This document shows, piece by piece, positions 37,623-55,081 of a stretch of 64,000 nt of DNA (position 1 is the stretch's first letter; every line of letters begins with the position of its first letter). This DNA comes from Flavobacterium cerinum. GTDB lineage: Bacteria; Bacteroidota; Bacteroidia; Flavobacteriales; Flavobacteriaceae. The stretch is from positions 124,001-188,000 of the forward strand of contig NZ_SBII01000009.1 of assembly GCF_004028155.1 (NCBI RefSeq), written 5' to 3'. A program made the translations under genes and the position numbers. Under the pieces are notes generated by a model, which ran no database searches, was not told the DNA's origin, and saw nothing but the letters and a program-made list of their open reading frames with translations.

Positions 37623-40600
37623 CTATTGTTTTTTAATGACTTTAATTGTTTTAATAGTACTTCCTGAAGTTACATTAACGATATAAGCACCATCAGCAAG
37701 TGATGACATATCAATTTTAACTTCACCAGCATTTGGCTGTTGAGATATAACCTGCTGGCCCAATAAATTGAATACTGCAATAGAAGTCATATCCGAAGTA
37801 TAAGAAAGATTAAGTATATCTTTTACCGGGTTAGGGTAATATGTAAATATATCTTTATTGAAAGTATCTCTTCCCAGTACAACATCTATAGTAACTTTAA
37901 GAGTTAATATACTTGTACATGTACCTATGGTTTGAGTTGCAAAATAGTCTTCTCCATCTACAAGCTCTGTAGTAGCCGGTAAAGGATTTGTACCGTTAGA
38001 AGCATCTTCTTCAGTAGCATACCATGTAATTGTTCCTCCTGCATCAAGAGTAACTACGATATCCGCAATTGTAGCCTCTCCAGGTGTAGTAACGCTGATA
38101 GTTTGTGTAGCTGCTCCTTGTGGTGCTGGTACATTAGCTATCGTTACAACAAATGAACTTTCGGCTGTACAAACAGGGTTTGTACCTACTGAAGTAAACA
38201 CATAAAGTGTTGTTGTTTGTGTAATAACTCCACCTGCGTTAAGCGGTGTACCTGTTCCGTTTGGTCCTGTAAAATAAGAACCGTTTGTTAAAACAGGCAG
38301 CGTGTATTGAGAACATTCGCTTACATCAGCAAGATCATCAACTATTGCAGGAGTAATCATACCCTGAACAGCAAGTCTTGTTATACCTTCACATCCATCA
38401 ATATTCTGAGAAGCATAGTAGGTAGTACCACTAACTATAGGAGTAGTCACAGCCACAATATTTCCACCAATTGCTTCGTCATACCATACAATTGCATTTC
38501 CAGTAACAGTAAGATTACCTACTGTACTTGCACTACAAAATGCTTGTGTAGCATTACCTGTAGGAGCAGGAATTACATTTATGTTTACTGTAAGAGCAGT
38601 TCTGGCAGCACTTTCACATGTACCTATAGTTTGTGAAGCATAATAGATCGTATCATCTATAAGCGATGCTGAAGACTCTAAAGCTGTTCCACCTGTAGCA
38701 GCTGCATACCATTTAATATTTATTCCTGAATCAGTGATAAGTTCACCTACAGCACCCGAATTACATATCTGCTGAACAAGTGCAGGAACCGTTGGTGCAG
38801 GAACAATACTAACATTTGCTGTAAGCGCTGTTCTAGCAGTACTTTCACATGTATCTATAGTTTGAGATGCATAGTAAGTTGTACCGTTAACAAGTTGTGT
38901 AGTAGTAGCTAAAGCTGTTCCACCTGTAGCAGCTGCATACCATTTTATAGCAGTACCTGTAGCAGTAAGATCTGCAACAGTAGCTGCACTACAGAAATTC
39001 TGTGTTGGAGCAGCAACAGTTGGCGCATTTACTAAAGTGATATTAACTATAAGCGCAGTCCTTGCAGGGCTAACACATGTACCTGCTGTAGATTCTGCAT
39101 AATAAGTAGTATCATCTACAAGAGCAGTTGTAGCTAATAAAGCTGTACCACCGGTAGCAGCTGTATACCATTTTATACCTGTCCCTGTAGCAATAAGATC
39201 TGCAATTGTGCTTGCACTACAAAACTGCTGCATTGGAGCAGGAACTGTAGGAGTAGGAGCTAAATTAATGTTTGCTGTAAGTGCAATTCTAGTAGCACTT
39301 TCGCATGTTCCTACTGTTTGTGATGCATAATAAACAGCATCATCTACAAGAGCTACCGTAGGTAATAAAGCAGTACCGCCTGTAGCAGCTGCATACCATT
39401 TTATACCTGTTCCTGTAGCAATAAGATTTGCAACAGTACCTGAGTTACAGAATTCCTGTATTGGAGCAGGAACTGTAGGAGCATTCACTACAGTAATATT
39501 TACTGTACGAGCTACCCTTCCTGCACTTTCACATCCGCCCACCGTTTGTGATGCATAGTAAATAGTTCCGTTAACAAGAGCTGTTGTAGCCACTAAAGCT
39601 GTACCGCCTGTAGAAGCAGCATACCATTTTATACCCGTTCCTGTAGCAACAAGATTTGCAACAGTACCTCCATTACAAATATCCTGTGTTGGAGCCGGAA
39701 CAGTTGGAGCTGCTACTACATTTATTGTAACAGCTACCGGAGCAGTTACTGAACATCCTGCCGGAGATGAAGACGTTACAGTATATGATGCCGCTGCAGT
39801 TGGCTTAACAAATACAGTTCCTAACGATTGTCCTGTATAAGGAACAGTAGCAGCTGCATCTGTATATAAATTAGTCACTGGAGACCAAACAAGATTACTT
39901 TTTAGACCGGTTATTTTTAAATTATCAATTAACCAACCATAATAAAGTGTAGAAACCTCTGCAGTATATCTGAAACGTACTCTAAACTGATTCGTTAAAG
40001 CCGCTGCAGGAATATTAATTGTTTCGGTTTTCCACAGTGATGTTGAATTTGGTAACGATGTAGCTCCTGTAAACTGGGTAATCCAGTCAGGATAACTCTT
40101 CGTTGAAAAAATCACACCATCAACAGGATTGGTTGTTCCCTGAGTAGTTATTAAAGTACCAGAACCAGCATAACTAGATGCAGGGAATGTTACCCATGTA
40201 GTTCCACCATCAGAAGAATACTGAACATATCCTAAATCCCAAGAAGTTGCACTTCCTTCTATAGCCGCAATATGAGAGAATGTTAATTGTGCACCTCCAT
40301 ATGTCGTAAGATCAATATTTGCATTTGAACTATAGCTTACATCAGAACTGTTACCTGTTGGCGTAAATAACACAGATCCTGTTCCTTGCGAGAAATAAGT
40401 AGTGTTCAATGCTGCACTAGCCGTTCCTGTAACACTAGCTGTTGTAAACTGTGTAGACAAGACATCAAAAGTCTCTTGTCCCACTGGTGTAGGATTTAAA
40501 CCTCCTGTAGCTACTAAAGCCTGAGCAGTACCTTCACAAACAGCCACTGTAGGAGCAGTTACTATTGCACTTGGCAATGGATTAATAGCGATATTAACTG

Positions 40601-43600
40601 TTACAGGGATAGCAACACACATTGTTCCTGTAGTACTGCTTGCCTGTAATGAATATACTGTAGATGCAGCAGGATTAAATGTCCATCCTGTTGTTGAATT
40701 TCCAGAAACACCTGTAGATGGTGTCCAAACGTATGTATCATAATCAGACGCACCTGTAACAATTGTTACAGCTGTTGTAGTTTGTCCAGAGCAAACAGCC
40801 GCTGGAGCCGCACTTAGTGTAATAGCCGGTGGCGTATTAACTGTTGCAACTACCGGTACTCTTGCTGAAGAACATCCGGCACTTGTTTTTAAATTATAAA
40901 AATAATAGTAAGTTCCTGTAGTTGTACCACCCCATTCACTTGAAGTAACACTTATGTTACTATTTGTGTAAGGAAAAGCAAGATCAGTACTTCCTCTAAC
41001 AAGGCTTACTCCACTATATGATTTAACTAATATTTTATAACCTGTACCTGCATTTACATTAAAATTAAGAGGTACAACAGTAGGTGTAGTAGTTCCTCCG
41101 GCAGTAACGTTGATAGTTCCTGTAGAGAACAATTCAGTACCTGCTGCGTTAGTAACTTTTACAGTAACCGTACCATCTGTTGTAGAATAAATATCTACAG
41201 AATTAAGAGTGACATTCTGTAAAGCACTAAATACAATACCCCAATCGGTGAAAGTTGAACCACCCCATGTTCCGTCCGGAGTTATTCTTCCACCTGGAAC
41301 AGGTGCGCCACCAGTAGATTCTGCTGCTGCATAATAAGTTGTAGTAGCATTAATTGATGGGGTTACAAAAGGTGAGCCTGAAGCAATTGAAGAACCTCCT
41401 GTTACTGCAGTATACCATTTTACTGTTGTTCCTGCACTTCCTGTAGCTGCTAAAGATACAGTTCCTGCACCACATCTTACTCCCGGAGTTGAAGTTAGAA
41501 CATTATTAGAAAAAGTAATCTGAACCGGTGTAGATGTGCCTGTAGCAGGTCCTGACGCACAAGTTACTTTTAGCTGATAATATAATGAAGCTAAAGGTGT
41601 AGTAACATAAGTTGCTGATGTAGCTAATGCTATATCAGTATATGTTACATTATCCGGAGAACTTTGCCATTGATATGTTACTCCTGAACCAAGAGTAGCA
41701 TTTTGTACTGATAAAGTTACTGATGCCCCTGCACAAATAGCATTAGTTGAAGCTATAGTATTGCCAGGAACAGGTGTACCAGCACAAAGGTTAGATTTCG
41801 CATAAGAAATAAATCCTGTATAGTTTGCAGCTGTTACAGCAGTATTAGACTGTATGGTATTTGGTGTTCCCGCAACAAATGTTGAAGTACTACCAAATAA
41901 ACCTGTATATATACCGTCAGCAGCCGGAGCCATTACCGGTATGTTTTCATTTGTGAAAACAGCATCTGCTAATCTTACATTTAATGCAGTCATAGTTCCA
42001 GATACTAATGGTGCTTCCCATCTTCTATTAGCTGCTAAGTTGATTATTGATGCATCCTGAGTTCCTGCATTTGTATCAAACGCTTCTGCTTTCATTACCG
42101 AAACAGCTGTTGTAGCCGGAGATAATAAAATAGGAGCATAAGCTGCTTTTCCTACAGGGAATAAAATATAGCTTGTATTTGTATTAGCTATAGTTCTTGC
42201 TATAGGACCTGTAACATATGCAGTAGCACTACCGCCTGATAATGTTCCTGCAGCTGCAGCTGTACCTAAAGTAAGTAAATTAGCTGTAGTTGTGTTTAAT
42301 TTACCTGCTGTAAGTGTTAAAGTACCGCTAAGAGATAATGGTACATTTAATGTTACACCCGCAACATTAGTATTGTTTAGTGTCATAGAAACTAAATTTG
42401 CAGTAGGCGTTGAAGCCGAATTAGCAAATGTTCCTGTTCCAGAAACTGTTTGTGCAAGAGTAGATGCTGCAGCAGTACCTCCTAAATAAGTACCAAATAC
42501 CAAAGTTCCTGTTCCTACATATGTTCCATTATTTTGAAGATTACCTGTAACATAAGTAGATACAGCGTTATCTCTATATTCACTATTAGCATTTACAGTC
42601 ATATTAGCATTTACACCAAAAGTACTTGCTGTTGTAACATAACGGTTTGTACCTATTCCTCCATTAACAATTAAGTTATTGAATGATATTCTTCCAGCAC
42701 CTGCAAATGTGTTTATACGGAAACCATTTGTAGCATTTCCTCCTACATCTGTTGATACACCATCTCCAAAACGTATTGTATGGCCTGATGTAATATTAAC
42801 ATTGGTTGACGAGTTATATGCAAACGAGTTAGTTGCTGTAGCATTAGCATGTGGGTCAACAATTGTAAGTGTACCTCCTGTCCAGTTTAACAATGGTGTA
42901 TTAATCTGAACAATAGCTGTACCTGAAGCAACTGAAGTTGCAGGAACACCTATATCACTTCCATCAACATTGATGTCACCTCCACTTTGATTAAATGCAG
43001 CAGTAGCATTATGAAGCATATTACCATTAACAGTAAGTGTACCTCCTGTAACGGTAAGTGTACCATTATTTACTAAACTATTGTTTTTTAATGTACATCC
43101 TACAGTAAGGTCGCCAGAGGCAACTGTTAAAGTACCGCCAGTAGCGATCGTTGTATTTTTAGAAACAGCACCAACTGTATTAACTGTAACAGTTGTTCCT
43201 GAAGTAATGTTAACCAGATCTGTACATGCAGGTACTGCATTTTTATTCCAGGTAGCAGGACTGTTCCAGTCACCGTTTGCTACAGAAGCAAAAGGAACAT
43301 CAACAGCCGCAGTAGCCATACTGAAAGGACCAGCAAGCAGCTCAGTCGCAGTAAGTACTCTTTGTGCTCCTGGAGTAATAGTTCCCGCCTGATAAGTACC
43401 TACTAAAGACGCTCCCTGAATAATCCTTGCTGTTGGAGTTACAGTTACACCTCCAAAGATACCTGGAGCAAGCAATTGTAATTCAAATGATGTAGCTGCA
43501 GTTGGCGTACCGCTAATCGCAGAAACTGTCCATGTATCATTGGCTTTAGTATCAACCACGAAGTTAGGGGTTGAACTGGTATCTGTTACATTTATTGCAG

Positions 43601-46600
43601 TTGTTCCTGCAATGTTATTATAGGTAACACCTAATACACCTGCTGCTGCAACTGGCGTATTTCTTTCTACAAATGTAGATCTGTCTTGATTAAGTGAGTT
43701 TACAAAAGGATATCTTGATGTAGTAGCTGAAGCGTCAGTACCAGCTGCTATTGGGCTACCTGTTCCGGTAGCTGTAAACCATCTTCCAAAAGTAACACCT
43801 GAAGCAAATCCACCTGCAGTATACGATAGCGTTCCTAATGTTGTAGTAGAAACTCCTAATATAAACGATGCATTACCCACAGTACTTATTTTACCAGAAA
43901 CAAATGTTAATGTTCCACTAACTGAAACTGAATTTGCCGGTTGAGTTGCAATATTCGATGCTCCTGCAAAAGTAACACCTGCCGGATTGCTGTTATTTAC
44001 TGATAAAGAAGCAATATTAGCCGTAGCAGCTGTAGCTGCATTAACAAATATACCTGTTCCTGTAACTGTTTGTGCTAATGTAGATGCTCCTGCGGTACCA
44101 TTTAAAAAAGTACTAAAAGACAAGGTTCCTGTTGCTACATATGTTCCATTATTTACAAGATTACCTGTAATATTAACAGCAACACCATTATCTCTATATT
44201 CACTATTAGCGTTTATTGTCATGTTACCGTTTATACCAAAAGCATGAGTCGATGTAACATAACGATTTGTACCTGTACCTCCATTAACAACAAAGTTGTT
44301 AAACGATATCCTGTTTGAACCAGGGAATGTAGATACACGGAAACCATTAGCTGCATTTCCACCTGCATCTGTTGATACACCATTACCAAAACGTATTGTA
44401 TGCCCAGCTGTAATATTTACGTGGGTTGACGAGTTAGTATATGTAAACGAATTTGATGCAGTTGAATTAGCATGAGGATCGACGATAGTTAACATACCGC
44501 CTGTCCAGTTTAACAATGGTGTATTGATCTGAACAATTGATACACCTGAAGCAACCGAAGTTGCAGCAGCACCTGCATCGTTTCCATCAACATTAATATC
44601 ACCACCACTTTGATTAAATGTAGCTCCGGCATTATGCTGCATGCTACCATTAACATTAAGTGTCCCTCCTGTTACGGTAAGTGTCCCGTTATTTACAAAA
44701 CTATTGTTTTTTAATGTACAACCAACTGTAAGGTCGCCAGAGGCAACTGTTAATGTACCATCTAAAAGAATAGACATATTTTTCACAACATTAGCTGCAG
44801 AATTTACTGTAACATTTGTTCCGGCTGCAATGACAACAGTACTTGTACATAAAGGCACAGCTCCTCTATTCCAAGTTGCAGCATTGTTCCAGTCACCGTT
44901 TACTATAGAAACATAAGGAGTATCCTCAGTATCAAAGCCCATATATAAACCTGTTGCAGCAGTAACATCAGCAGTTAGAACACCGCTTCTTTGAGCTGAT
45001 GGTACAGATGAAGTGTTTACATGCGTACCACTTACTACGGCACTCTGACCTAAAATTCTACTGTTTCCATAAGCAGTTACATAAGCATTTGGTGCGAAAA
45101 TTGTAACCCAGTTTGATGCAGCTACGGGAGATGTAGCCTCAGTAGTTACAACAAAATTACCATTCCATCTGTTTGTAACAGTATATGCGCCATCAACAAT
45201 TGAAAGCCCTGTTGTTACAGTCGTTGCATCGTTATATGACACAGCATATATACCTCCAACTGTTGGAGTAGTTCTTCCTAGAAAAAAAACTCTCTGCTGA
45301 CCATCTGCAGCATAAAAAGGATATCTTCCTTCAGGTGCAGTTGGTAAAGAAGTTGGTCCCGAAGTAACATAACCTGTTGTGGTGTTACCCCACCATCTTG
45401 CAAATTTTCCAGTACCCATAAAACCTCCATTAGTAATCGTAAAAGTATTACCTGCTGAGGTAAGGCTTGTACCATATGTAAACTTGTTTGTTCCTAAGTT
45501 AATTTTAGCATTAGAAATATTAAGGTTATAATCAACACTTAAATTGTTCATTTGCCAATTAATGTTTGGTATAACAGTACTTGTGTTCGAAAAAGTAAGA
45601 TTTCTTATTGTGTTATTAACAAAAGATCCTGTTCCACTTAATGTCTGAACAGCTGAACCATTAAAAATAAGGCTACCTGCTGTAGTTGTACCTACAGAAA
45701 CATCTATAGATCCATTATTAATAATATTACCTCCTACAGTTAATGTTTTACCTGTAGTTCCATTAAATACATTAACTAATCCTCCTGATGCTACGGTTAA
45801 ATTACCGCCTATTATAAATGAACCAGGTGCAGTACCATAAGCTAATGTTCCATTTACTATAGTGTTTGGACTAGATTGTCCGGCTGCATTTACTGTAACA
45901 GTATGTCCAGCCGTTATAGTTACACTAGCATCTCCACTATCAGGAACTGAATTTAAGTTCCATGTAGATGGTGAATCCCAGTTTCCTGAAGCAATAGAAA
46001 TATAGTTACCCGGAATACGTGATACTAATGATATATTATCTATAGCCGCAGGTGGTGGTGTTCCAACGCTATCATCGCTTTTCCACGAAAAAATAATCCT
46101 GAATGTTGTTCCTGCTAATGAAGCAGGTAAGCTGTAAGTTACTGACTGCACTCCTGTTTGAGGAGATCCGTTACCAATGTAAGTTGCACCAGCAATTCCT
46201 GCAGGTACACCATTAGTAGATGCAACTCCAGGGTGAGTTGCAGAAGCGACAGGGTTTACTGTAACAGGTGCAAAAAACACCTGCCACATATCCCAATCTG
46301 TTTCTCCCTGGCTTCCCCAGTTAAAACTAAGTGTGATTTTTGTTTCTCCTGCAGGAACTGTTACATCCCTCCAAAAGAAGTTTGTAGCCGGAGAAGAATT
46401 GCTATAGGTGTAAGTTGCACCGTTTACAGCACTGGAAATATACGCAACATTTCCAGTCATTACTCCTGAAGCAGCAACAGGCCCCACATACCAGGGATTG
46501 TTTGCTGAATTTGCTACAGTCCATCCATTAGCAGCAAAGGTAGCGCCATTGGCAAACCCTCCTCCTCCTGCAGGATCAATTAACACTGTTTGTGCATATG

Positions 46601-46652
46601 CTCCCGTTATTAGGGAGAGCAGAAATGCAATTAAAAATGTAATTTTTTTCAT
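37623..46652 (-). CDS. Giant T9SS-secreted mosaic repeat protein (3009 residues)
   Basis: Predicted cell-surface or secreted protein; signal peptide ends GAYAQ. Order: jelly-roll-like domain (about 22-210); three G8-like beta units starting WxxxxTW at about 216, 575 and 1120, the last two being about 540 residues apart and nearly alike; Ig/PKD-like modules (about 1620-2050); a jelly-roll or MAM-like domain (about 2058-2255); five Ig-like repeats of 75 residues (about 2313-2700) plus divergent ones; then a T9SS type A sorting domain (about 2933-3009) with YYPNPVKDILNLSY and FNLLGQQV. Probably an adhesin; no enzyme motif seen. Confidence 0.9.
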   Translation of the reverse strand: MKKITFLIAFLLSLITGAYAQTVLIDPAGGGGFANGATFAANGWTVANSANNPWYVGPVAASGVMTGNVAYISSAVNGATYTYSNSSPATNFFWRDVTVPAGETKITLSFNWGSQGETDWDMWQVFFAPVTVNPVASATHPGVASTNGVPAGIAGATYIGNGSPQTGVQSVTYSLPASLAGTTFRIIFSWKSDDSVGTPPPAAIDNISLVSRIPGNYISIASGNWDSPSTWNLNSVPDSGDASVTITAGHTVTVNAAGQSSPNTIVNGTLAYGTAPGSFIIGGNLTVASGGLVNVFNGTTGKTLTVGGNIINNGSIDVSVGTTTAGSLIFNGSAVQTLSGTGSFVNNTIRNLTFSNTSTVIPNINWQMNNLSVDYNLNISNAKINLGTNKFTYGTSLTSAGNTFTITNGGFMGTGKFARWWGNTTTGYVTSGPTSLPTAPEGRYPFYAADGQQRVFFLGRTTPTVGGIYAVSYNDATTVTTGLSIVDGAYTVTNRWNGNFVVTTEATSPVAASNWVTIFAPNAYVTAYGNSRILGQSAVVSGTHVNTSSVPSAQRSGVLTADVTAATGLYMGFDTEDTPYVSIVNGDWNNAATWNRGAVPLCTSTVVIAAGTNVTVNSAANVVKNMSILLDGTLTVASGDLTVGCTLKNNSFVNNGTLTVTGGTLNVNGSMQHNAGATFNQSGGDINVDGNDAGAAATSVASGVSIVQINTPLLNWTGGMLTIVDPHANSTASNSFTYTNSSTHVNITAGHTIRFGNGVSTDAGGNAANGFRVSTFPGSNRISFNNFVVNGGTGTNRYVTSTHAFGINGNMTINANSEYRDNGVAVNITGNLVNNGTYVATGTLSFSTFLNGTAGASTLAQTVTGTGIFVNAATAATANIASLSVNNSNPAGVTFAGASNIATQPANSVSVSGTLTFVSGKISTVGNASFILGVSTTTLGTLSYTAGGFASGVTFGRWFTATGTGSPIAAGTDASATTSRYPFVNSLNQDRSTFVERNTPVAAAGVLGVTYNNIAGTTAINVTDTSSTPNFVVDTKANDTWTVSAISGTPTAATSFELQLLAPGIFGGVTVTPTARIIQGASLVGTYQAGTITPGAQRVLTATELLAGPFSMATAAVDVPFASVANGDWNSPATWNKNAVPACTDLVNITSGTTVTVNTVGAVSKNTTIATGGTLTVASGDLTVGCTLKNNSLVNNGTLTVTGGTLTVNGNMLHNATAAFNQSGGDINVDGSDIGVPATSVASGTAIVQINTPLLNWTGGTLTIVDPHANATATNSFAYNSSTNVNITSGHTIRFGDGVSTDVGGNATNGFRINTFAGAGRISFNNLIVNGGIGTNRYVTTASTFGVNANMTVNANSEYRDNAVSTYVTGNLQNNGTYVGTGTLVFGTYLGGTAAASTLAQTVSGTGTFANSASTPTANLVSMTLNNTNVAGVTLNVPLSLSGTLTLTAGKLNTTTANLLTLGTAAAAGTLSGGSATAYVTGPIARTIANTNTSYILFPVGKAAYAPILLSPATTAVSVMKAEAFDTNAGTQDASIINLAANRRWEAPLVSGTMTALNVRLADAVFTNENIPVMAPAADGIYTGLFGSTSTFVAGTPNTIQSNTAVTAANYTGFISYAKSNLCAGTPVPGNTIASTNAICAGASVTLSVQNATLGSGVTYQWQSSPDNVTYTDIALATSATYVTTPLASLYYQLKVTCASGPATGTSTPVQITFSNNVLTSTPGVRCGAGTVSLAATGSAGTTVKWYTAVTGGSSIASGSPFVTPSINATTTYYAAAESTGGAPVPGGRITPDGTWGGSTFTDWGIVFSALQNVTLNSVDIYSTTDGTVTVKVTNAAGTELFSTGTINVTAGGTTTPTVVPLNFNVNAGTGYKILVKSYSGVSLVRGSTDLAFPYTNSNISVTSSEWGGTTTGTYYYFYNLKTSAGCSSARVPVVATVNTPPAITLSAAPAAVCSGQTTTAVTIVTGASDYDTYVWTPSTGVSGNSTTGWTFNPAASTVYSLQASSTTGTMCVAIPVTVNIAINPLPSAIVTAPTVAVCEGTAQALVATGGLNPTPVGQETFDVLSTQFTTASVTGTASAALNTTYFSQGTGSVLFTPTGNSSDVSYSSNANIDLTTYGGAQLTFSHIAAIEGSATSWDLGYVQYSSDGGTTWVTFPASSYAGSGTLITTQGTTNPVDGVIFSTKSYPDWITQFTGATSLPNSTSLWKTETINIPAAALTNQFRVRFRYTAEVSTLYYGWLIDNLKITGLKSNLVWSPVTNLYTDAAATVPYTGQSLGTVFVKPTAAASYTVTSSSPAGCSVTAPVAVTINVVAAPTVPAPTQDICNGGTVANLVATGTGIKWYAASTGGTALVATTALVNGTIYYASQTVGGCESAGRVARTVNITVVNAPTVPAPIQEFCNSGTVANLIATGTGIKWYAAATGGTALLPTVALVDDAVYYASQTVGTCESATRIALTANINLAPTPTVPAPMQQFCSASTIADLIATGTGIKWYTAATGGTALLATTALVDDTTYYAESTAGTCVSPARTALIVNITLVNAPTVAAPTQNFCSAATVADLTATGTAIKWYAAATGGTALATTTQLVNGTTYYASQTIDTCESTARTALTANVSIVPAPTVPALVQQICNSGAVGELITDSGINIKWYAAATGGTALESSASLIDDTIYYASQTIGTCESAARTALTVNINVIPAPTGNATQAFCSASTVGNLTVTGNAIVWYDEAIGGNIVAVTTPIVSGTTYYASQNIDGCEGITRLAVQGMITPAIVDDLADVSECSQYTLPVLTNGSYFTGPNGTGTPLNAGGVITQTTTLYVFTSVGTNPVCTAESSFVVTIANVPAPQGAATQTISVTTPGEATIADIVVTLDAGGTITWYATEEDASNGTNPLPATTELVDGEDYFATQTIGTCTSILTLKVTIDVVLGRDTFNKDIFTYYPNPVKDILNLSYTSDMTSIAVFNLLGQQVISQQPNAGEVKIDMSSLADGAYIVNVTSGSTIKTIKVIKKQ
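38390..39716 (-). repeat. Tandem 225-bp coding repeats (Ig-like) in the 3009-residue gene
   Basis: Five close copies and one diverged copy of a unit of about 75 codons, each with TVPAPxQxxC, IKWYAAATGGTAL, YYASQTxGxCES and TALTxNI. Two further distant relatives precede the C-terminal domain. Conservation at the DNA level (for example the repeated GCATACCATTTTAT on the plus strand) indicates recent duplication or gene conversion. Confidence 0.85.
42290..44930 (-). repeat. Tandem duplication of about 1.62 kb within the 3009-residue gene
   Basis: Two homologous arms of about 1.0 kb: 42.29-43.30 kb and 43.9-44.93 kb. Corresponding points are offset by about 1.62 kb, for example CTATTGTTTTTTAATGTAC near 43,080 and near 44,700. 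The DNA and the encoded residues (NGDW...ATW...AVPxC, DPHANxTA, GHTIRFG) are closely alike. Confidence 0.85.
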
Positions 46653-47004: not shown

Positions 47005-50000
47005 TTATTTTTTTACAATCTTAATTGTTTTTACAGTGTTATTGGCCGCACCTATCTTAATTAGATATATGCCTTCAATACATGATGTCATATCAACTTT
47101 TACTTCTAATGCATTAGGCTGATCAAAGCTAATTTGCTGTCCTAACAAATTAAATATACCAACAGAAGTTATTTCGGTAATTGAAGAAAGATTAAGAACA
47201 TTATTAACCGGGTTTGGATAGTATGTAAACTGATCTTTATTAAACTGATCTCTTCCCATAATAATACCTACAGTTACATTTAAAACTTCTTCACTTACAC
47301 ACGCTTCTATCACCTGTACACCAAAGTAATTTTCACCATCTATTAACTGTGTATACGCTTCAAGAGGATCCTCATTATTCACAGCATTATTAAGGGTATT
47401 ATACCAAACTACTGTTCCTCTTTCTTCAAGGATAACTTCTATATCTTCTATTGTAGCCACACTGTCTCCATTTAAAGTAATGGTTTGTATAATTTCGCCT
47501 TTTGGAGCTGGTGGCAGCTCATTTATATGTACAGTAAGAGGTGTTCTTAAAACGCCCTCACAATTATCTATTGTTTGTGAGGCATAATAAATAACATTGT
47601 CTTCTAAAATTGTTGTAGATGCTAAAACTATTCCTCCTGCAGCACTAGCATACCATTTTATATCTGTTCCATAATCAGTAATTAATTCTGCTATAGTGCC
47701 GGAATTACAAAAAACCTGAACAGCTGCAGGAACAGTTGGCGCCGCAACTTCTTTTACTATAACATCTATCCCTGCTGTTACTGCACACCCTACTACAGAT
47801 GAAGAACTTGTAACTATATAAGACCTTGAGATATCAGACTTAACATAAACGGTTTCTGATGGCTCTCCTGTATAAGGTATTGTTGCAGCTTCATCACTAT
47901 ATAAGTCTGTAACCGGAGACCATACCAGATTATTCCCAATACCAGTTACTTTTAAGTTATCAATCAGCCAGCCATAAAATAATGATGAGAAATCTGAAGT
48001 ATATTTAAAACGGACTCTAAAATCATTTGTTAAGGCAGCTACCGGAATGTTTATTGTTTCTGTCTTCCAAAGTGACGGATCGTCTGGTAATGAATTATCC
48101 CCTATAAATTTAAGGGCCCAGTCTGCATAACTTTTTGAGGAAAAAATCACACCATTTACAGCTACATTTTCCCCTTGGATTGTTACTAAATCTCCCTCTC
48201 CTGCATAGCTTGATGCAGGAAATGTAACCCAGGTTGTTCCTCCATCAGAAGAATACTGTACATAACCCAAATCATGAGATTTAACCGGACCATCTAAAGC
48301 CGCAATATGTGAAAATGTTAATTGTGCAACAGTATATCCTGAAAGATTAATGTTTGTATTCATACTATAGCATACATCTGCATTATTTGATGTTGCTTTA
48401 AACAATACAGATCCTGTTCCCTGAAAAGCGTACGAAGTATTTAGGGCTGCACTTGATGTTCCTGCAAAATCTTGTGTGATAAATTGTGTCGAAGCAATAT
48501 CAAAAGTATCCTTAAATAATTGTTTAGCAACTACACCTCCTTCAGCGGTCATGACTTGTATACTCCCCGGACAAACACTGATTTCGGGAGTCGTAATTAT
48601 CGCTGTTGGTAATGAGTGAACAACAATATTTACTGTTAATGGGTTTGCTGAACACAGTGTTCCTGTAGATTGTGATGCATGAAGCACATATTCAGTTGTT
48701 ACATCTGTATCAAATACCCATCCTGAAGCGGCATTTCCTGACACGCCTTCTGAAGGAGTCCATACATAAGTATCATAATCATCTGCACCTTCGGCCACTG
48801 TAACCACAGCTGCTTCATTCGCGCAAACAATGACATTTGAAGCACTTAAGGATAACACAGGTGATACACTTAAAGCTGCCAATACAGGAACCCTTGGCGA
48901 CGAGCAGCTGCCAAAAACAATATTTGGCCTTAGTGATGATAGTTTACTTGTAATTCCGTTATTAACAAGAGCTGTATTACTACCTGTTGTTTCTGTATAA
49001 TAAGTTCGGGCATTATCATCGCTTCCTACCCCTTTATGACTAATTTCTACAACAATATTTGAAGATCCATCCCAAAAGTATGGTGTAGTGAAATTGATAA
49101 TCTGCCATCCGCTTGCTGTATGAGTGTATGTTTGAGGACCAAACACAGTGGTTAAACCTGTGGTTAAGAAAGTAGTAGTTGCAAAGGAAACTCCTGTAAC
49201 TGTACCCATTTTTACGATATAATCTTGATTTACTGCACTGCTGCCCAATGTTGCAATATTGAAACCTATGGATGTTAAATTTCCTTGTGTAAGGCCTGCC
49301 TCAATTAGCTCTCCTGCAGTATATATTATTTGAGCTTTATAATTTGACCAGCGATTACAAAAAGCCGTTGGTTGTAACTCCTGTGCGGCAATTAATGTTG
49401 TTGCTGTACCAATAATCCCAGAACCTGCCATTGCTTCGGCAGCTGCATAATAAGTAGTATTTGTATTAATTTCAGGTGTTATAAAACTATTACCCGCTGC
49501 CAAAGCTACACCGCCAGTAGGCGTATCATACCATTTTATTGTGCCTCCATTTGACACTGCTTCTAAAGTCACATTTCCTGCACCACATCTTGCACCTTCT
49601 ATGGTGGAAACTATGTCATTAGAATCACATAATGTCCTAAAGACAATTGGACCATTCCAATTGCTAAATGTTCCTGTAGAACAGTTTGATTTTATCCATA
49701 CATAATATACTGTGTTTGGATTAAGTCCAGAAATATTCGTAAAGCTATTACCAGCTGTTACAGTTCCTGTAGGACTTGTATTTACTAAGGGGGCTACACT
49801 ACTATCACTTTTATAATAAGAATATCCATTTGCAGGATTACTTGAGGATGCTCCCCAGTTAATTACTACAGAATTTTCAGTAATTACTGAAGTAGAAAAA
49901 GTTGTTGGTGCTACGCAGGATGGTTTCTGCATAAAAAATCTAACTCTGGGCTTTTTAGCCAGAGATCCATCGGCATGGGGAGTATTACATAAAACAATAT

Positions 50001-50586
50001 CATCCGATTCAGAATGAATATAACTATTTGCTACGCCATTATAATTCCACAGTTTTCCAAAGGTATCGCTATCTGAAAAATACATATTGTCAAAACAAAT
50101 ATCTATCACCACATTATCGATACCGTTCCAGTTAAAAGGACTATCAAATATAATATCATTAAAGCCTGTAGCCGGCATATAATCAAAAGGTGCTTTTACC
50201 TGTGTAAGATATGTAATGAAATTAGATCCAGAAATACCAGTTACCGTAGTATGTCCCATTTTTATAGTATAGTTTGGGAATCCCTCTTCGGCATCATTTG
50301 CTGCTATAATATCCCAGGCTAATCGTTGAATATTTCCTGCAGCAGCACCTCCGGCAAGCAGCTCCGCAGCCGAATAGATAATTTGAATTTTACGCCCTGC
50401 ATAAAATCCATTTACCGGACTGCTATTTTCATTACCGCTGTCTTGAATTTGTGCACCAAGCGTAACATAATCTTGTGCAGACACTATCTGTCCCAATGCT
50501 AAAAAGAAAAAGCATAAAGCAGTATTCAAATGCTTTATGCTTTTTCTTTTCACAGGAAAAGGACTTAAAACCATAGTTTTTTTCAT
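47005..50586 (-). CDS. T9SS-secreted FN3/Ig mosaic protein (1193 residues)
   Basis: Signal peptide has a long basic N-region and is cleaved after SAQ (about 38). A beta domain (about 39-222) is followed by FN3 (about 223-320), an Ig-like module, a second copy of the beta domain (about 385-565), a PKD/Ig-like module (about 575-655), a jelly-roll/MAM-like domain (about 680-880) nearly identical in parts to that of the 3009-residue protein, and an Ig repeat (about 945-1020). It ends in a type A sorting domain (about 1115-1193; YYPNPVNNVLNLSS, FNLLGQQ). Surface location inferred. A perfect inverted repeat lies in its signal-peptide codons. Confidence 0.9.
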   Translation of the reverse strand: MKKTMVLSPFPVKRKSIKHLNTALCFFFLALGQIVSAQDYVTLGAQIQDSGNENSSPVNGFYAGRKIQIIYSAAELLAGGAAAGNIQRLAWDIIAANDAEEGFPNYTIKMGHTTVTGISGSNFITYLTQVKAPFDYMPATGFNDIIFDSPFNWNGIDNVVIDICFDNMYFSDSDTFGKLWNYNGVANSYIHSESDDIVLCNTPHADGSLAKKPRVRFFMQKPSCVAPTTFSTSVITENSVVINWGASSSNPANGYSYYKSDSSVAPLVNTSPTGTVTAGNSFTNISGLNPNTVYYVWIKSNCSTGTFSNWNGPIVFRTLCDSNDIVSTIEGARCGAGNVTLEAVSNGGTIKWYDTPTGGVALAAGNSFITPEINTNTTYYAAAEAMAGSGIIGTATTLIAAQELQPTAFCNRWSNYKAQIIYTAGELIEAGLTQGNLTSIGFNIATLGSSAVNQDYIVKMGTVTGVSFATTTFLTTGLTTVFGPQTYTHTASGWQIINFTTPYFWDGSSNIVVEISHKGVGSDDNARTYYTETTGSNTALVNNGITSKLSSLRPNIVFGSCSSPRVPVLAALSVSPVLSLSASNVIVCANEAAVVTVAEGADDYDTYVWTPSEGVSGNAASGWVFDTDVTTEYVLHASQSTGTLCSANPLTVNIVVHSLPTAIITTPEISVCPGSIQVMTAEGGVVAKQLFKDTFDIASTQFITQDFAGTSSAALNTSYAFQGTGSVLFKATSNNADVCYSMNTNINLSGYTVAQLTFSHIAALDGPVKSHDLGYVQYSSDGGTTWVTFPASSYAGEGDLVTIQGENVAVNGVIFSSKSYADWALKFIGDNSLPDDPSLWKTETINIPVAALTNDFRVRFKYTSDFSSLFYGWLIDNLKVTGIGNNLVWSPVTDLYSDEAATIPYTGEPSETVYVKSDISRSYIVTSSSSVVGCAVTAGIDVIVKEVAAPTVPAAVQVFCNSGTIAELITDYGTDIKWYASAAGGIVLASTTILEDNVIYYASQTIDNCEGVLRTPLTVHINELPPAPKGEIIQTITLNGDSVATIEDIEVILEERGTVVWYNTLNNAVNNEDPLEAYTQLIDGENYFGVQVIEACVSEEVLNVTVGIIMGRDQFNKDQFTYYPNPVNNVLNLSSITEITSVGIFNLLGQQISFDQPNALEVKVDMTSCIEGIYLIKIGAANNTVKTIKIVKK
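50502..50550 (-). promoter_or_regulatory. 20-bp perfect inverted repeat within the signal-peptide codons
   Basis: Arms at 50502-50521 and 50531-50550 are exact reverse complements around a 9-base loop. In the mRNA the GCATAAAGCA/TGCTTTATGC core is followed by a U-rich stretch (codons for FFFL), as in a Rho-independent terminator, only about 35-85 bases after the ATG. This could attenuate or regulate expression of the 1193-residue protein. Confidence 0.55.
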
Positions 50587-50881
50587 GAAATAATTTTAAT
50601 TATAAAAGTTAATAAAATTATAAAATTTAATTGTAAAAATATAGCTACAACTTCTCTCCTATTATTTTTATATTATAAGTACCCCACACCTTCCTTTTAT
50701 AGTATTACACTACAAAAAACCTTCTTCTATTACAGCAATCGACAGTAAAACCATAAAAAAATATTGATACAATAATCCGATTTTTGAAAGGGATTAATTT
50801 ATTCCATAAAAAAAGCCCCATACTGGATGGGGCTTTATATTTAAATAAGACGCGTTAACGCCAATATATTATGTATTACAA
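50587..50881. other. Non-coding region between the 1193- and 1399-residue T9SS genes
   Basis: 295 bases, AT-rich, no ORF. The leader next to 50587 contains AAAGTTAATAAAATTATAAAATTTAA, in part the same as upstream of 46652. The far end holds the terminator of the 1399-residue gene at 50812-50836 and a palindrome GCGTTAACGC near 50852. No exact promoter box seen. Confidence 0.45.
50812..50836 (-). terminator. Terminator after the 1399-residue T9SS protein gene
   Basis: AAAGCCCCA (50812-50820) and TGGGGCTTT (50828-50836) with a 7-base loop and a minus-strand T run. A second self-complementary site, GCGTTAACGC, lies between it and the stop codon, mirroring the two-hairpin layout after the 3009-residue gene. 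Confidence 0.88.
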
Positions 50882-53800
50882 TTATTGTCTTTTAATAATC
50901 TTAATTGTTTTTACAGTATTTCCAGAAGCAACATTAACAACATACGCTCCATCTGCAAGTGATGACATATCAACCTTAACATCTGCAGCATTTGGCTGTT
51001 GAGAAATAACCTTCTGACCTAGTAAATTAAATACTGTGATAGAAGTTATCTCTGTTGAGTAAGAAAGATTAAGTACATCTTTTACAGGGTTAGGATGATA
51101 ATTAAACGCATCTTTATTGAAGATTTCTCTTCCAAGTACAACATCTATAACTACTACAAATATTTCAGTACTTGTACATTCTCCAATAGTCTGTGTAGCG
51201 AAATAATTCTCTCCGTTTACAAGTTGCGTATTAGCTGATAAAGGATTTTCTCCATTAGCAGCATCCTCTTGTGTCGCATACCAGGTAACAGTTCCACCAT
51301 CTTCAAGATCAATTACTATATCTTCAATTGTAGCATTAGCAGCAACGTCTGCATTAATAGTCTGCGTAGCGTCTCCTGTAGGAGCCGGTACATTTGTTAT
51401 TGTAACTACAAACGAGCTCTCCGCTGTACAAACAGGGTTTGTACCTGCCGAAGCGAAAATGTAAATTGTTGAGGTTTGTGTAATAGCCGTTCCAGCTGTA
51501 ATAACCGTTCCAGCTCCTGCTGCTGCTGTATGGTAAGCACCATTACTTAAAGCAGGTAAAATGTATTGAGAACATGCATCTACATCTTCTATATCTTCAA
51601 CTGTAACTGTTGTTATTGCTACCTGAACAGCAAGTCTTGTTAAACCTTCGCAACCTCCAATACTTTGTGAAGCATAATATGTTGTACCGTTTACAAGTGC
51701 TGTAGCAGCAGCTACAAGATTTCCTCCAGCTGCAGCATCATGCCAAACAATTGAATCACCTGTAACAACAAGATCTGCTACAGTACCAGCTCCACAAAAC
51801 GTTTGTGCTGCTAATCCTGTAGGAGCAGGAGTTACGTTTATATTAGCTGTAAGAGCTGTTCTTAAACTTTCACATCCACCCAATGTTTGTGACACATAAT
51901 AAATTGTATCATCAACAAGAGGTGTTGTAGCAGCTAAAGCAGTTCCGCCAGTAGCAGCAGCATACCATTTTAAAGCCGTTCCTGTAGCATTAAGATTAGC
52001 AACAGTTCCTGCATTACACAAATCCTGTATCGGAGCAGGTACAGTTGGTACTGGAGTTACATTGATATTAACTGTAACTGCTGTTCTTGGACTTTCACAT
52101 CCATCAAGTGTTTGTGATACATAATAAACCGCATCATCAACAAGAGGTGTTGTAGCAGCTAAAGCTGTTCCTCCTGTAGTTGCAGCATACCATTTTAAAG
52201 CCGTTCCTGTAGCATTAAGATTAGCAACAGTTCCTGCATTACAAAATTCCTGTACCGGAGCCGGTACAGTTGGTGCAACAGTACTGCTTACAGTTACCGC
52301 TACCGTAGCTGTACGCACACAACTAGCACTTGAAGTTCCTGTGATAGTGTATGTTACAGCAGGAGCTGCTGTTGAAGACTTAAAGTATACTGTTTTTGCA
52401 TTTGTACCTGCTACATATGGAGTTGTCGCTGTTGCATTTGTATACAAATTGGTTACAGGCGACCATGCAATAGTTGTTGGCTGAGAAGACTGGAATTTAA
52501 CATTCAGCCTCTTTTTTGATAATGACCCTGAAGTTGTTGTAGAACTATCATATGAATACGTATAAAGCAGCGTATTATCAGCTGTTTCTGTATAGTAAGT
52601 TTGTGTATTATATGTACTATCAGCTCCATCATGTGTGATATTTACTACTATGTTTGAAACTCCATCCCATACATAAGGTGCAGTAAAAGTAATAAGTTGC
52701 CATCCACTCTCTGTATGTGTATAAGTTGTTGGCCCATAAACTGTTGAAAAGCCGGTGGTAGATAAAAAGTTGCTATCAGCAAAACTTACAGCATTAGTCG
52801 CACCTAATTTAATAGTATAATTATCATTTGTTGCTCCACTACCTAAGCTGGTAATGTTAAAAGATAATGAGGTTATGTTACCTGCCGTTAATCCTGCAGC
52901 TGTTAGTTCCTGAGCTGTATAGATTATTTGGTTCCAGTAATTTGGCCAACGGTTACAAAAAGCCGTTGGTTGCTCAGTGTCTCCTGTTAATGTTGTACCT
53001 AAACCTGTAACCGCTTCACTTTGCACAGTACCTCCATTAGCCGTTATAGGCAATATAGTCTCTGCACATGCAGATGCAGTTGCAGGAACTGTAATTGTAG
53101 AAGGTAAAAGATTAACTGTAATTTTTACAGTAACCGGTGTAGCTGCGCACATTGTACCAGTTGACTTAGAAGCATTTAATGTATAAGTAGTAGTTGCTGA
53201 CGGGTTAAATGTCCATCCTGTAACAGCATTTCCAGATACACCTGTAGAAGGAGTCCAAACATAAGTATCATAATCCGTAGCACCTGCAGTTATAGTAACA
53301 GCTGTAGAAGTCTGCCCTACACAAATTGCAGCCGATGCCGTACTTAAAGTTAATACCGGAGATGCTCCAACCGTTGCAAGAACAGCAGTTCTTACTGAAG
53401 CACAGCTACCAAACACAATATTTGGTCTTAAAGCCGAAAGTGTTCCAGCAGTAGTAGTAGTATTTAGATCAAAAAGAACTGTATCTGCGGTAGTAGTATA
53501 GTTAGTACTAGCATTATTTGTGCCATTAGCCCCTTTATGACTAATTTCTATAACAATGTTAGATGTACCATTCCATGCATATGGAGTTGTAAAGTTAATT
53601 GTTTGCCATCCGGTTGCTGTATGTGTATAGGTTTGAGGACCAAACACGGTTGTAAAACCAGTTGTTAAAAAGTTTGTATCAGCAAAAGTGCTACCAGTTG
53701 TTGATGCTATTCTAACAGTATAATCATCATTAAAAGCAGCATCACCTAATGTTGCAACATTAAACTTAAGAGATGTTAAAAAACCTGCAGTTAAACCAGC

Positions 53801-55081
53801 TGCAGTTAATTCTGCTGCCGTATACACCATTTGAGCCCTGTAATTTGCATAACGGTTACAAAATGCAGTTGGTTCATTATTACCTTGTACAGTAAAAGTT
53901 GTACCTGTACCAATAAGACCAGATCCGGCCATTACTTCGGCACTTGCATAATACGTAGTATTAGTACTGATAGAAGGTGTTACAAAAGAATTACCAGATC
54001 CTAATGCAAGCCCACCTGTAGCAGCTGAATACCATTTTATAGTACCTCCACTTGCCGTAGCTCCTAACGTTACAGTTCCCGGACCACATCTTGTACCTGC
54101 TGTAGTAGCAGTTATATCATAAGCATCACAAAGTGTTGCAAATAATACAGGACCTATCCATGAACTAGATGAGCCAGGACCACAATTTGCTTTTACCCAA
54201 ACATAATATGAAGTGCTTGCAGCTAAACCTGTAAGATTTACTGTTGTAACACCTGCCAAAACAGATCCGGTTGGTGTTGCTCCGGCTGTTGGCGGTGTAC
54301 CGCTCGTGCTTCTATAATAAGAATATCCATTAGCAGGAGTACTTGCTGATGCTCCCCAATTAATTGTTGCTGTATTTTCGCCAACTGTAGGAACGGTTAA
54401 AATTCCTGGAGGCAAACATGACGCCTGCTGCATATAGAATCTCACTCTTGGCTTTAAAGCTGAAGTATCTCCAGCAGTAAGATTTTCACAGGAGTCAACA
54501 CCATCCTCTTGTCTATGACGGTAGTTATTTGTTACACCTGCATAATTCCACGCTTGTCCATGCAGGTCAGAATCCAGAAATGGTGCATCACTAAAACAAA
54601 TTTCAACAAGTACATTACTAGTACCATTCCAGTTAAAAGGAGCATCAAATGTAATATCATTAAAACCTAAAGCAGGCGTATAACTAAATGCATTTTTTAC
54701 AACTGTGGCACCTGTAACAAAATCAGATGTAGGAATGTCTGGTGTTGTAATATGAGCCATTTTTATGGTGTAATTTGGTAATGCTTCTTCATATAAATCA
54801 GATACATCCCAAGCCAATCGCTGGATATTTCCTGCAGTTCCACCTTGTGCGATCAATTCAGCGGCAGTATAAACTACCTGAATACGTCGGCTTGTGTAAT
54901 ATCCACTAACAGGACTCGAGCTATAATTTCCACTTTTACTCACCTGTGTTCCCAAGGTGACATAACCTTGTGCAAATGTCATTTGTCCAATCAATAAAAA
55001 GAGCATACAACAGACAAAATTAACTTGTCTATTGAACTCCACTTTATTGATAAAAACTTTAAAAAGAATAGTTTTTTTCAT
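50882..55081 (-). CDS. T9SS-secreted FN3/Ig mosaic protein (1399 residues)
   Basis: Signal peptide ends TFAQ (about 38) after a long N-region. Beta domain (about 39-222), FN3 (about 223-320), Ig-like, a second beta-domain copy (about 385-560), PKD/Ig-like, then a third copy (about 690-864, TAFCNRWPNYWNQIIYTA). Two 75-residue Ig repeats (from about 938; LKWYAAATGGTAL) and divergent ones follow, then the type A sorting domain (about 1324-1399; HPNPVKDVLNLSY). Architecture is collinear with the 1193-residue protein up to the PKD module, so the two are paralogues. No catalytic motif; a binding or adhesion role is an inference. Confidence 0.9.
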   Translation of the reverse strand: MKKTILFKVFINKVEFNRQVNFVCCMLFLLIGQMTFAQGYVTLGTQVSKSGNYSSSPVSGYYTSRRIQVVYTAAELIAQGGTAGNIQRLAWDVSDLYEEALPNYTIKMAHITTPDIPTSDFVTGATVVKNAFSYTPALGFNDITFDAPFNWNGTSNVLVEICFSDAPFLDSDLHGQAWNYAGVTNNYRHRQEDGVDSCENLTAGDTSALKPRVRFYMQQASCLPPGILTVPTVGENTATINWGASASTPANGYSYYRSTSGTPPTAGATPTGSVLAGVTTVNLTGLAASTSYYVWVKANCGPGSSSSWIGPVLFATLCDAYDITATTAGTRCGPGTVTLGATASGGTIKWYSAATGGLALGSGNSFVTPSISTNTTYYASAEVMAGSGLIGTGTTFTVQGNNEPTAFCNRYANYRAQMVYTAAELTAAGLTAGFLTSLKFNVATLGDAAFNDDYTVRIASTTGSTFADTNFLTTGFTTVFGPQTYTHTATGWQTINFTTPYAWNGTSNIVIEISHKGANGTNNASTNYTTTADTVLFDLNTTTTAGTLSALRPNIVFGSCASVRTAVLATVGASPVLTLSTASAAICVGQTSTAVTITAGATDYDTYVWTPSTGVSGNAVTGWTFNPSATTTYTLNASKSTGTMCAATPVTVKITVNLLPSTITVPATASACAETILPITANGGTVQSEAVTGLGTTLTGDTEQPTAFCNRWPNYWNQIIYTAQELTAAGLTAGNITSLSFNITSLGSGATNDNYTIKLGATNAVSFADSNFLSTTGFSTVYGPTTYTHTESGWQLITFTAPYVWDGVSNIVVNITHDGADSTYNTQTYYTETADNTLLYTYSYDSSTTTSGSLSKKRLNVKFQSSQPTTIAWSPVTNLYTNATATTPYVAGTNAKTVYFKSSTAAPAVTYTITGTSSASCVRTATVAVTVSSTVAPTVPAPVQEFCNAGTVANLNATGTALKWYAATTGGTALAATTPLVDDAVYYVSQTLDGCESPRTAVTVNINVTPVPTVPAPIQDLCNAGTVANLNATGTALKWYAAATGGTALAATTPLVDDTIYYVSQTLGGCESLRTALTANINVTPAPTGLAAQTFCGAGTVADLVVTGDSIVWHDAAAGGNLVAAATALVNGTTYYASQSIGGCEGLTRLAVQVAITTVTVEDIEDVDACSQYILPALSNGAYHTAAAGAGTVITAGTAITQTSTIYIFASAGTNPVCTAESSFVVTITNVPAPTGDATQTINADVAANATIEDIVIDLEDGGTVTWYATQEDAANGENPLSANTQLVNGENYFATQTIGECTSTEIFVVVIDVVLGREIFNKDAFNYHPNPVKDVLNLSYSTEITSITVFNLLGQKVISQQPNAADVKVDMSSLADGAYVVNVASGNTVKTIKIIKRQ

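Follow-up and report, generated by a model that had tools for sequence, protein, structure and literature searches.

Putative type IX-secreted adhesins of Flavobacterium carry different guest domains at two conserved positions of an Ig stalk

Results

Three giant genes lie side by side on the minus strand of the window (the whole 64-kb stretch of DNA analysed), and the question that they raise is whether this is a locus where secreted, adhesin-like proteins are assembled by duplication and module swapping, as the original prediction had it. They encode proteins A (37623..46652, 3009 aa), B (47005..50586, 1193 aa) and C (50882..55081, 1399 aa), and are bordered upstream by fabV (55362..56552, minus strand; NF043048, 647 bits) and downstream by a glycosyltransferase gene (36525..37520, minus strand) that adjoins coaE (35932-36525). 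That they are adjacent modular substrates of the type IX secretion system (T9SS) type is confirmed here by the open reading frames and by matches over cut-off to Por_Secre_tail/TIGR04183 and Ig_7. The C-terminal type A sorting domains of A (37629..37838), B (47008..47220) and C (50888..51094) scored 48.8, 36.9 and 49.4 bits, respectively (TIGR04183, cut-off 23), and the CHU_C-associated Ig_7 family (PF19081, gathering score 27.3) 184.1, 73.3 and 111.2 bits. Among the mixed modules announced, Ig_7 was found in all three proteins and the jelly-roll in A and B, but FN3 exceeded the Pfam cut-off of 25 only in C (54167..54412, minus strand, 25.7 bits), B being below it (22.2 bits) and A unlisted. 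The N-termini, where signal peptides had been announced, look basic-hydrophobic by eye (over roughly 38 aa for B and C), the genome encodes SprA (2764.9 bits) and PorV (528.2 bits, cut-off 250), and the expected PorD-like gene was indeed found close by, 3.4 kb from C (58437-59324; NF052317, 400 bits, cut-off 170). Export of A, B and C through the T9SS would fit the type A sorting domain, SprA, PorV and PorD.

B and C are collinear as predicted, with 44.5% amino acid identity across B 1-1098. The similarities are nevertheless lower than had been anticipated: the supposedly near-identical sorting domains, compared together with the last Ig_7, share only 69% (A/C), 50% (A/B) and 54% (B/C) of their amino acids, and the jelly-roll recurs in A and B but not nearly unchanged (65% amino acid and 69% DNA identity). 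Since dS is 0.66-1.90 in every segment shared by A, B and C, and amino acid identities are 50-69% in the C-terminal parts and 65% in the jelly-roll, the three proteins must be long diverged. The A/B jelly-roll is at least as old as its hosts (dS 1.25), and per-segment identity and dS gave no sign of recent exchange among the three. Of the outcome that the original prediction had set against itself, namely that the three genes are fixed and long diverged, the second half is thus borne out by dS.

A, B and C themselves define a two-slot scaffold, in the order h1N, slot 1, h1C-Ig2-Ig3N, slot 2, Ig3C, which can be read directly from all three. Slot 1 lies inside an Ig_7 and slot 2 inside the third Ig, at identical positions in the three proteins, and the guests (slot 1/slot 2) are X/X in C, X/J in B and Y/J in A. 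All the features that follow are on the minus strand. In C, an N-terminal X0 domain (aa 38-222, 54416..54970; X profile E 2e-40) precedes the N-terminal part of the slot-1 host Ig_7 (aa 330-382, 53936..54094), guest X (aa 383-558, 53408..53935), the segment made of the last strand of host 1, Ig2 and the N-part of Ig3 (aa 559-684, 53030..53407), a second guest X (aa 685-872, 52466..53029), the C-part of the Ig3 host (aa 873-933, 52283..52465) and a tandem Ig_7 pair (51828..52274; 2.0 copies of 225 bp, 89% matches). B is built likewise, with X0 (aa 38-222, 49921..50475; E 2.8e-38), slot-1 host N-terminal part (aa 332-384, 49435..49593), guest X (aa 385-559, 48910..49434), last strand of host 1 to Ig3 N-part (aa 560-684, 48535..48909), guest J (aa 685-888, 47923..48534) and Ig3 C-part (aa 889-947, 47746..47922). 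Domain X therefore occupies five places across B and C, including the N-terminal domain of both. In A the corresponding parts are the slot-1 host (aa 1725-1778, 41319..41480), guest Y (aa 1779-1925, 40878..41318), the middle segment (aa 1926-2051, 40500..40877), guest J (aa 2052-2255, 39888..40499) and the Ig3 C-part (aa 2256-2312, 39717..39887), followed by a tandem Ig_7 array (38584..39710; 4.9 copies of 228 bp, 74% matches). For the N-terminal half of A, B and C offer only matches of about 20-23%, none of them a good counterpart. That half begins with a tip domain (aa 21-212, 46017..46592) that has no Pfam family over its cut-off and by eye resembles the tip of an F. cheniae protein, and it holds an internal duplication of 951 bp (aa 579-895, 43968..44918, and aa 1120-1435, 42348..43295) whose copies are 78% identical in DNA. 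The three proteins do share modules, and specifically so: a middle-scaffold profile, built from rows that include the three, matched them in their own genome at E 1.6e-47 to 5.2e-44, and no other protein of that genome better than E 1.8e-6.

In the loci fetched we found 73 non-redundant scaffold rows. Both slots could be typed in 48, as X/X (15), Y/J (14), Y/X (12), X/J (2), X/Z3 (2), X/Z4 (2) and Y/Z4 (1), so that all four combinations of X or Y in slot 1 with X or J in slot 2 are directly observed. In two proteins of Flavobacterium sp. NKUCC04_CG slot 1 is unoccupied, with 9 and 11 aa. By sequence, X, Y, J and the rarer guest families appear to have no clear mutual relation (top hhalign probability between families, 1.02%), although the families were joined by single linkage, X is deeply branched, and two weak cross-matches blur the separation, one of the X profile to 52 residues within the J of B (E 6.7e-4) and one of the A tip domain to J (9.6% probability). 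As isolated domains, X and Y have no Pfam match over any cut-off, and no catalytic family exceeded its cut-off in A, B and C (Pfam and NCBIfam) or in eight isolated domains (Pfam).

Predicted models of C and A reached middling confidence (pLDDT 77.6 and 66.6, pTM 0.48 and 0.36, respectively). The structural likenesses come from a second look at Foldseek matches, families outside those listed being still possible. In the C model, the slot-2 X is a predicted beta-sandwich similar to a carbohydrate esterase N-domain (Z 11.1); in the A model, Y would be a PHR-like beta-sandwich (Z 14.2), and J a jelly-roll resembling reelin, MAM and several carbohydrate-binding jelly-rolls. The scaffold could be placed by comparison with GhpA, the grappling hook protein of Aureispira, which its profile also matches by sequence (E 1e-8), at positions from about residue 1300 to 4690 whose starts are mostly 81-85 aa, or multiples of this, apart and most of which are singly weak. 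The structure aligner gives only the first and last aligned residues, and on this measure the C model was longer than the aligned part of GhpA by about the length of the guests, spanning 354-367 residues extra in five of five three-Ig rows (guests total up to 364) and 175-176 extra in three of three two-Ig rows (guest 176). The A model spanned 348-350 extra in four of five three-Ig rows (guests 351) and 147-148 in three of three two-Ig rows (guest 147), the misfit being 9fls (rmsd 21.9). A weak sequence match of a C-region profile to Delta (E 0.0028) was treated as chance.

Because the genome collections hold one genome per species, module replacement was compared between species. In genome G033, the A-like protein adjoining fabV carries X/X, against Y/J in A. 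At a second locus, an otherwise well conserved orthologous gene was followed in seven genomes, and here replacement of modules is directly observed: slot 2 holds J in place of X in F. proteolyticum, slot 1 holds Y in place of X in UBA6195, and the N-terminal domain differs in F. cheniae, whose slot-2 X belongs to a distant X subfamily. The neighbours are conserved on both sides in F. proteolyticum and F. cheniae, and downstream alone in UBA6195. Between L164 and L122 the N-terminal domain is replaced in a background of roughly 97% amino acid identity. Duplication and module swapping had thus been proposed rightly in kind, since modules are replaced between species, but not as recent exchange among A, B and C. 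Where a guest is swapped, identity also drops in some of the surrounding host Ig, so the two may move as a unit. As for the number of events, parsimony on the scaffold trees gave 9 and 9 slot changes, which are soft because many forks are open and A, B and C fall in no starred clade; within separate starred clades only three slot-1 and two slot-2 changes were counted. Within the F. proteolyticum genome, two other matches to the J segment came up, one partial (query 165-284, 40%) and one long but weak (27%, E 1.4e-5); neither fits as its donor.

Of 113 syntenic genomes, 46 carry one to five cargo genes of type A at the junction between fabV and the glycosyltransferase gene. An exception is G025, whose 13.6-kb junction holds TamB-like, TamL, Mla-type transporter and FabI-type genes and no gene for a C-terminal sorting domain (CTD) protein. 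Independent acquisition of the cargo was not supported: by body matches of at least 80 aa the 79 CTD proteins of the hotspot form one set, and at 60% mutual coverage 10 sets (66, 3, 2, 2 and six single), under a single linkage that repeats may over-join. No tRNA that would point to tRNA-associated integration was found in the 64-kb window, and B found no match at E 1e-5 by tblastn against 50,697 phage records. Judged by titles and abstract openings, none of the literature matches listed deals with a two-slot scaffold or a fabV hotspot.

Discussion

We believe that A, B and C are probably paralogous T9SS surface adhesins with an Ig stalk, whose guest heads in two slots and whose tip have been replaced independently. 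Two Ig domains of the stalk would serve as hosts for guest beta-sandwich domains, which in slot 1 would sit ahead of the last strand of host 1 and in slot 2 past the first strands of the third Ig. Guests of binding-type folds and the N-terminal tip would have been replaced independently during evolution, most plausibly by homologous recombination in the conserved stretches of Ig on either side of each guest, and for that reason the piece exchanged would be the host Ig, whole or in part, with its guest. The folds suggest an adhesin-like nature, and the predicted function is that of a displayed surface adhesin with variable, ligand-binding heads on a constant stalk and anchor, from which a selective benefit may follow. 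A broader proposal, to which we give an even chance, is that Ig domains of a lineage shared with GhpA became sockets in flavobacteria, with lectin-like heads in two loops and at the tip, recombined between species into a combinatorial repertoire of surface recognition.

The dS values and the presence of scaffold genes at several loci within a genome group are also what would be expected of ordinary paralogues, born of an ancient tandem duplication followed by domain loss and gain, with no ongoing exchange and with slots that differ as paralogues differ. This explanation is unlikely, being contradicted at the second locus, where slot-2 and N-terminal modules were replaced between conserved neighbours and a slot-1 module next to conserved downstream ones, as well as by the existence of all four slot combinations and by the tip replacement between L164 and L122. 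Given the repeated Ig domains, the differences could alternatively be chimeras of short-read assembly; the repeats are long and a G033 contig ends within such a gene. Yet the F. proteolyticum J segment, which sits between conserved neighbours on a contig of 1.27 Mb, has no second close full-length copy in its genome, and we regard artefacts of this kind as very improbable.

The guests might instead be catalytic or enzyme-associated modules, and the giants degradative rather than adhesive. Many type A substrates are hydrolases, and the esterase-like X and the likeness of J to reelin, MAM and carbohydrate-binding jelly-rolls agree with such a role. No catalytic family exceeded its cut-off in the searches described above, however, and we consider a degradative role somewhat less probable still than long-diverged paralogues, although more probable than assembly chimeras.

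For independently replaced heads, the natural single-module replacements between close species provide protein pairs that differ mainly in one head, and the role of each head in binding, colonisation and cell contact can therefore be tested. The data also point to two domain families, X and Y, without Pfam match over cut-off, and to a conserved chromosomal junction that collects such genes. If the Ig domains are sockets, a surface-recognition repertoire could be read directly from genomes.

Among known systems, Bartonella BadA, a modular adhesin varied by recombination, and the repeat-length 'Periscope' proteins are anchored and vary in stalk or head, as would A, B and C; their secretion routes differ, and guests nested within Ig loops, which A, B and C have, are not apparent in the descriptions at hand. 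The TANFOR polymorphic toxins are modular Bacteroidetes proteins tied to T9SS neighbourhoods (PMC7073777), and are toxins with immunity genes. In A, B and C, no toxin family exceeded its cut-off (Pfam and NCBIfam) and the C-termini are sorting domains; the J of A alone gave weak, sub-cut-off toxin names (Pfam). RemA, described as a lectin-domain adhesin of type A (PMC12618676), and similar Flavobacterium type A substrates share with A, B and C the TIGR04183 sorting domain and the PorV/SprA route predicted for these three; compared by description only, the passages on RemA make no mention of an Ig scaffold whose two slots take exchangeable inserts. Aureispira GhpA (9flp and seven further PDB entries) has the Ig family in common by sequence and by structure, in two- and three-Ig stacks, but, to judge by the spacing of its mostly weak single matches, it is a largely uninterrupted Ig string, whereas the string of A, B and C carries inserted guests. 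Domain shuffling in adhesins is usually described for domains strung end to end; here different folds fill the same sites within stalk Ig domains that are themselves conserved.

Nested domains in A, B and C

The three long ORFs lie on the minus strand at the positions originally predicted, C (50882-55081) being transcribed first, B (47005-50586) second and A (37623-46652) third. The group is bordered beside C by fabV (55362-56552) and beside A by a glycosyltransferase gene (36525-37520) next to coaE, while PorD is encoded at 58437-59324 of the window and SprA and PorV in the F. cerinum genome (4.1 Mb, 31 contigs; 89 matches to TIGR04183 and 81 to Ig_7 at E 0.001). All three proteins contain Ig_7 domains and end in a type A C-terminal sorting domain (CTD). 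These sorting domains had been described as near-identical and a jelly-roll domain as nearly unchanged, neither of which was borne out when the segments shared by A, B and C, or by A and B, were compared. By eye, the signal-peptide-like N-termini of B (50473-50586) and C (54968-55081) are unusually long, about 38 aa, and that of a gene at a second locus treated below (L121 12554-12712) reaches about 53 aa. Large autotransporters carry extended signal peptides, which these N-termini recall.

Side-by-side reading of the sequences showed that the domains common to A, B and C are nested inside Ig hosts. In host 1, an Ig_7 domain, the Pfam match ends at model position 65-69 of 84, and the last strand ('C.S.R..V.A') resumes only beyond a guest of 147-176 aa (slot 1); an uninterrupted Ig2 follows directly, and Ig3 is broken after 'GG' by a second guest of 188-204 aa (slot 2) and continues at 'WSP.T.LY'. 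With guest families denoted by letters and written slot 1/slot 2, C is X/X, B is X/J and A is Y/J. Because B and C also have an X as their N-terminal domain (X0; profile E 2.8e-38 and 2e-40), this family occupies five places across the two proteins. Guests X, Y, J, Z3 and Z4 showed no relation to one another in profile comparison (top probability 1.02%, versus 99.92% for X0 with X), the weak cross-matches being those of the X profile with 52 residues inside the J of B (E 6.7e-4) and of the tip domain of A with J (9.6% in profile comparison). On its own, this two-slot anatomy is, as judged from sequence, very probably correct.

Within the F. cerinum genome, the middle scaffold part (the last strand of host 1, Ig2 and the N-terminal part of Ig3) was strong in A, B and C only, and its profile did not detect the two-slot scaffold in strength in other Ig_7-rich giants. 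Several such giants exist in this genome, for example at L086 (C25), L088 (C30) and L089 (C4), with open frames of up to about 3000 aa.

Slot states across loci

Profiles of the three scaffold parts, compared with ORFs of at least 400 aa in the longer loci of the compared genomes, yielded 90 scaffold rows, or 73 once rows with an identical part were removed. With guest families built by single linkage, the deeply branched X (n = 56) was found in both slots (23 in slot 1, 33 in slot 2), Y (n = 33) in slot 1 only and J (n = 22) in slot 2 only; Z3 (n = 4), Z4 (n = 3) and a singleton were rarer. Both slots were typed in 48 of the 73 scaffolds (X/X 15, Y/J 14, Y/X 12, X/J 2, X/Z3 2, X/Z4 2 and Y/Z4 1), the remaining 25 being without a typed guest in one or both. 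Since X and Y in slot 1 each occur together with both X and J in slot 2, recombination or repeated replacement is needed. Slot 1 was empty, leaving an uninterrupted Ig_7, in two proteins of Flavobacterium sp. NKUCC04_CG (9 and 11 aa); a third protein, from the same contig, has 25 aa at this position, partly host strand by eye, and a fourth short value, of 5 aa, was a secondary match.

The fewest changes on the host 1 plus Ig2 tree were 9 for each slot, and on the Ig3 tree 12 for slot 1 and 8 for slot 2, both trees having many open forks. A count by hand restricted to three separate starred clades in the former tree gave at least three slot-1 and at least two slot-2 changes; A, B and C fall outside every starred clade of the scaffold trees. 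A tree of 28 X domains gave at least five changes of slot.

Module replacement at two loci

The genome closest to F. cerinum by RecN (81%), probably that of Flavobacterium sp. AG291, encodes an A-like protein that adjoins fabV, is about 66% identical to A through its N-terminal half and is X/X where A is Y/J; its C-terminal end falls past the contig end. About 530 aa of a duplicated region of A are missing from this protein. This internal duplication (window 42348-44918; 78% DNA identity, dS 0.53) is the least diverged duplicate among those measured.

The clearest example of natural REPLACEMENTS was at the second locus, another site with an orthologous gene and conserved neighbours. The gene was taken from seven genomes (L144, F. 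sasangense; L147/L121, F. proteolyticum; L148; L155; L159/L122, F. cheniae; L164; L175), L155 and L175 starting within it, with its upstream side and complete N-terminus outside these loci. Between F. proteolyticum and F. cheniae, flanking coding DNA is 87-95% identical on both sides, the gene start plus intergenic stretch 79% and 3.9 kb of the gene 83%, and yet slot 2 holds J in the former and X in the latter, and some 300 N-terminal residues are unlike. Similarly, L175 has Y in place of the slot-1 X of L164 and L122, with matching gene and downstream stretches at 81-94% DNA identity; L164 and L122 share about 97% aa identity outside some 300 N-terminal residues. The other second-locus genes resemble L121 or L164 at their start by eye and are X/X wherever typed. 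As identity begins to drop near the start of the host Ig and recovers at its end or just past the guest, what is exchanged is apparently the host Ig, whole or in part, together with its guest, as would be expected if conserved Ig segments act as crossover sites. We found no other close copy of the J segment in the F. proteolyticum genome, which counts against misassembly and favours import. The nearest J domains among those compared were those of L128 (62% identity) and A (52%), and the slot-2 X of F. cheniae belongs to a distant X subfamily.

A cargo hotspot between fabV and the glycosyltransferase gene

We surveyed 150 genomes of a 'same genus' group wide enough to take in Paenimyroides viscosum and a MAG deposited under the name Chryseobacterium gleum. 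Both recN and coaE were present in 145 genomes and shared a contig in 120; in 113, F. cerinum included, they were found within 60 kb and in conserved order, and the interval was below 3 kb in 49 of these, 3-4 kb in 17 and at least 4 kb in 47. With a CTD profile built from the same loci, CTD genes were detected in 46 of the 47 intervals of at least 4 kb (one gene in 26, two in 12, three in 4, four in 3 and five in 1), the long interval of genome G025 having none. None was found in the 17 intervals of 3-4 kb or in four examined of the 49 shorter ones, the other 45 being counted by length, which leaves little space past two genes. The junction thus carries one to five type A cargo genes in 46 of 113 genomes, 79 in total (median 1139 aa). 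All 79 proteins join one set through body matches, a body match being common to 42 of 52 same-locus pairs versus 1860 of 3029 different-genome pairs, and the two-slot scaffold is just one among the architectures there.

The G025 interval (L050, C3:186984-200621) carries TamB-like, TamL, Mla-type transporter and FabI-type genes in place of T9SS cargo. Of the 17 intervals of 3-4 kb, 11 have a FabI-type gene, judged by the same start sequence, next to fabV (e.g. L209 1427-2233), and in L216 such a gene replaces fabV at the junction; in a family scan of L209 and L050 the FabI matches were below curated cut-offs.

Proposed mechanism and comparison with known systems

According to PMC12618676, PorV picks up type A CTD substrates at the SprA translocon, anchoring or release following. 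At the level of sequence, we regard the domain anatomy, slot positions, mixed slot states and module replacement as established. We further consider it probable, as a whole, that these are stalk proteins whose guests are swapped by homologous recombination following transfer: A, B and C would be exported via the T9SS, the guests would be displayed as binding heads, and the benefit may lie in varied binding. Modular adhesins and their recombination are already known. In a search largely confined to non-subscription literature, and judged from titles and opening lines of abstracts, we found no description of different heads nested at fixed Ig positions and swapped.

Structures were predicted with AlphaFold for C 318-945 (pLDDT 77.6, pTM 0.48) and A 1712-2325 (pLDDT 66.6, pTM 0.36; parts of J below 50), and the models were aligned to experimentally solved ones. 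X has a fold like that of the N-terminal domain of the carbohydrate esterase PbeAcXE (Z 11.1 over 157 residues at 3.2 A) and like that of a Cwp84 region named lectin-like in an entry title (Z 9.6). Y is similar to PHR domains (Z 14.2 over 137 residues at 2.7 A), and J to the jelly-rolls of reelin and MAM (for reelin 3a7q, Z 11.1 over 136 residues at 3.2 A). Isolated J domains scored 27.9 (A, just above) and 25.3 (B, just below) against the Pfam Reelin_subrepeat-B cut-off of 27, and A and B as whole proteins were both below it. Such likeness of fold does not by itself demonstrate function.

The Ig hosts of both models aligned with consecutive Ig domains of GhpA from Aureispira. For C, all five three-Ig GhpA rows aligned over 236-240 residues at 3.9-4.6 A, the span in the model exceeding that in GhpA by 354-367 residues (guests sum to 364), and all three two-Ig rows over 159-162 residues at 3.6 A, with an excess of 175-176 (slot-1 guest, 176). 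In the A model, four of the five three-Ig rows aligned over 235-240 residues at 4.1-4.5 A (excess 348-350, guests 351), the fifth, 9fls, giving no fit (rmsd 21.9), and the three two-Ig rows had an excess of 147-148 (guest, 147). This agreement with guest length is one of arithmetic only, because the aligner gives just the first and last aligned residues. The GhpA sequence also matches the scaffold profile (E 1e-8 overall, a single stretch alone passing 0.001), and the starts of its matches are mostly spaced by 81-85 aa, or by multiples of this, between about residues 1300 and 4690.
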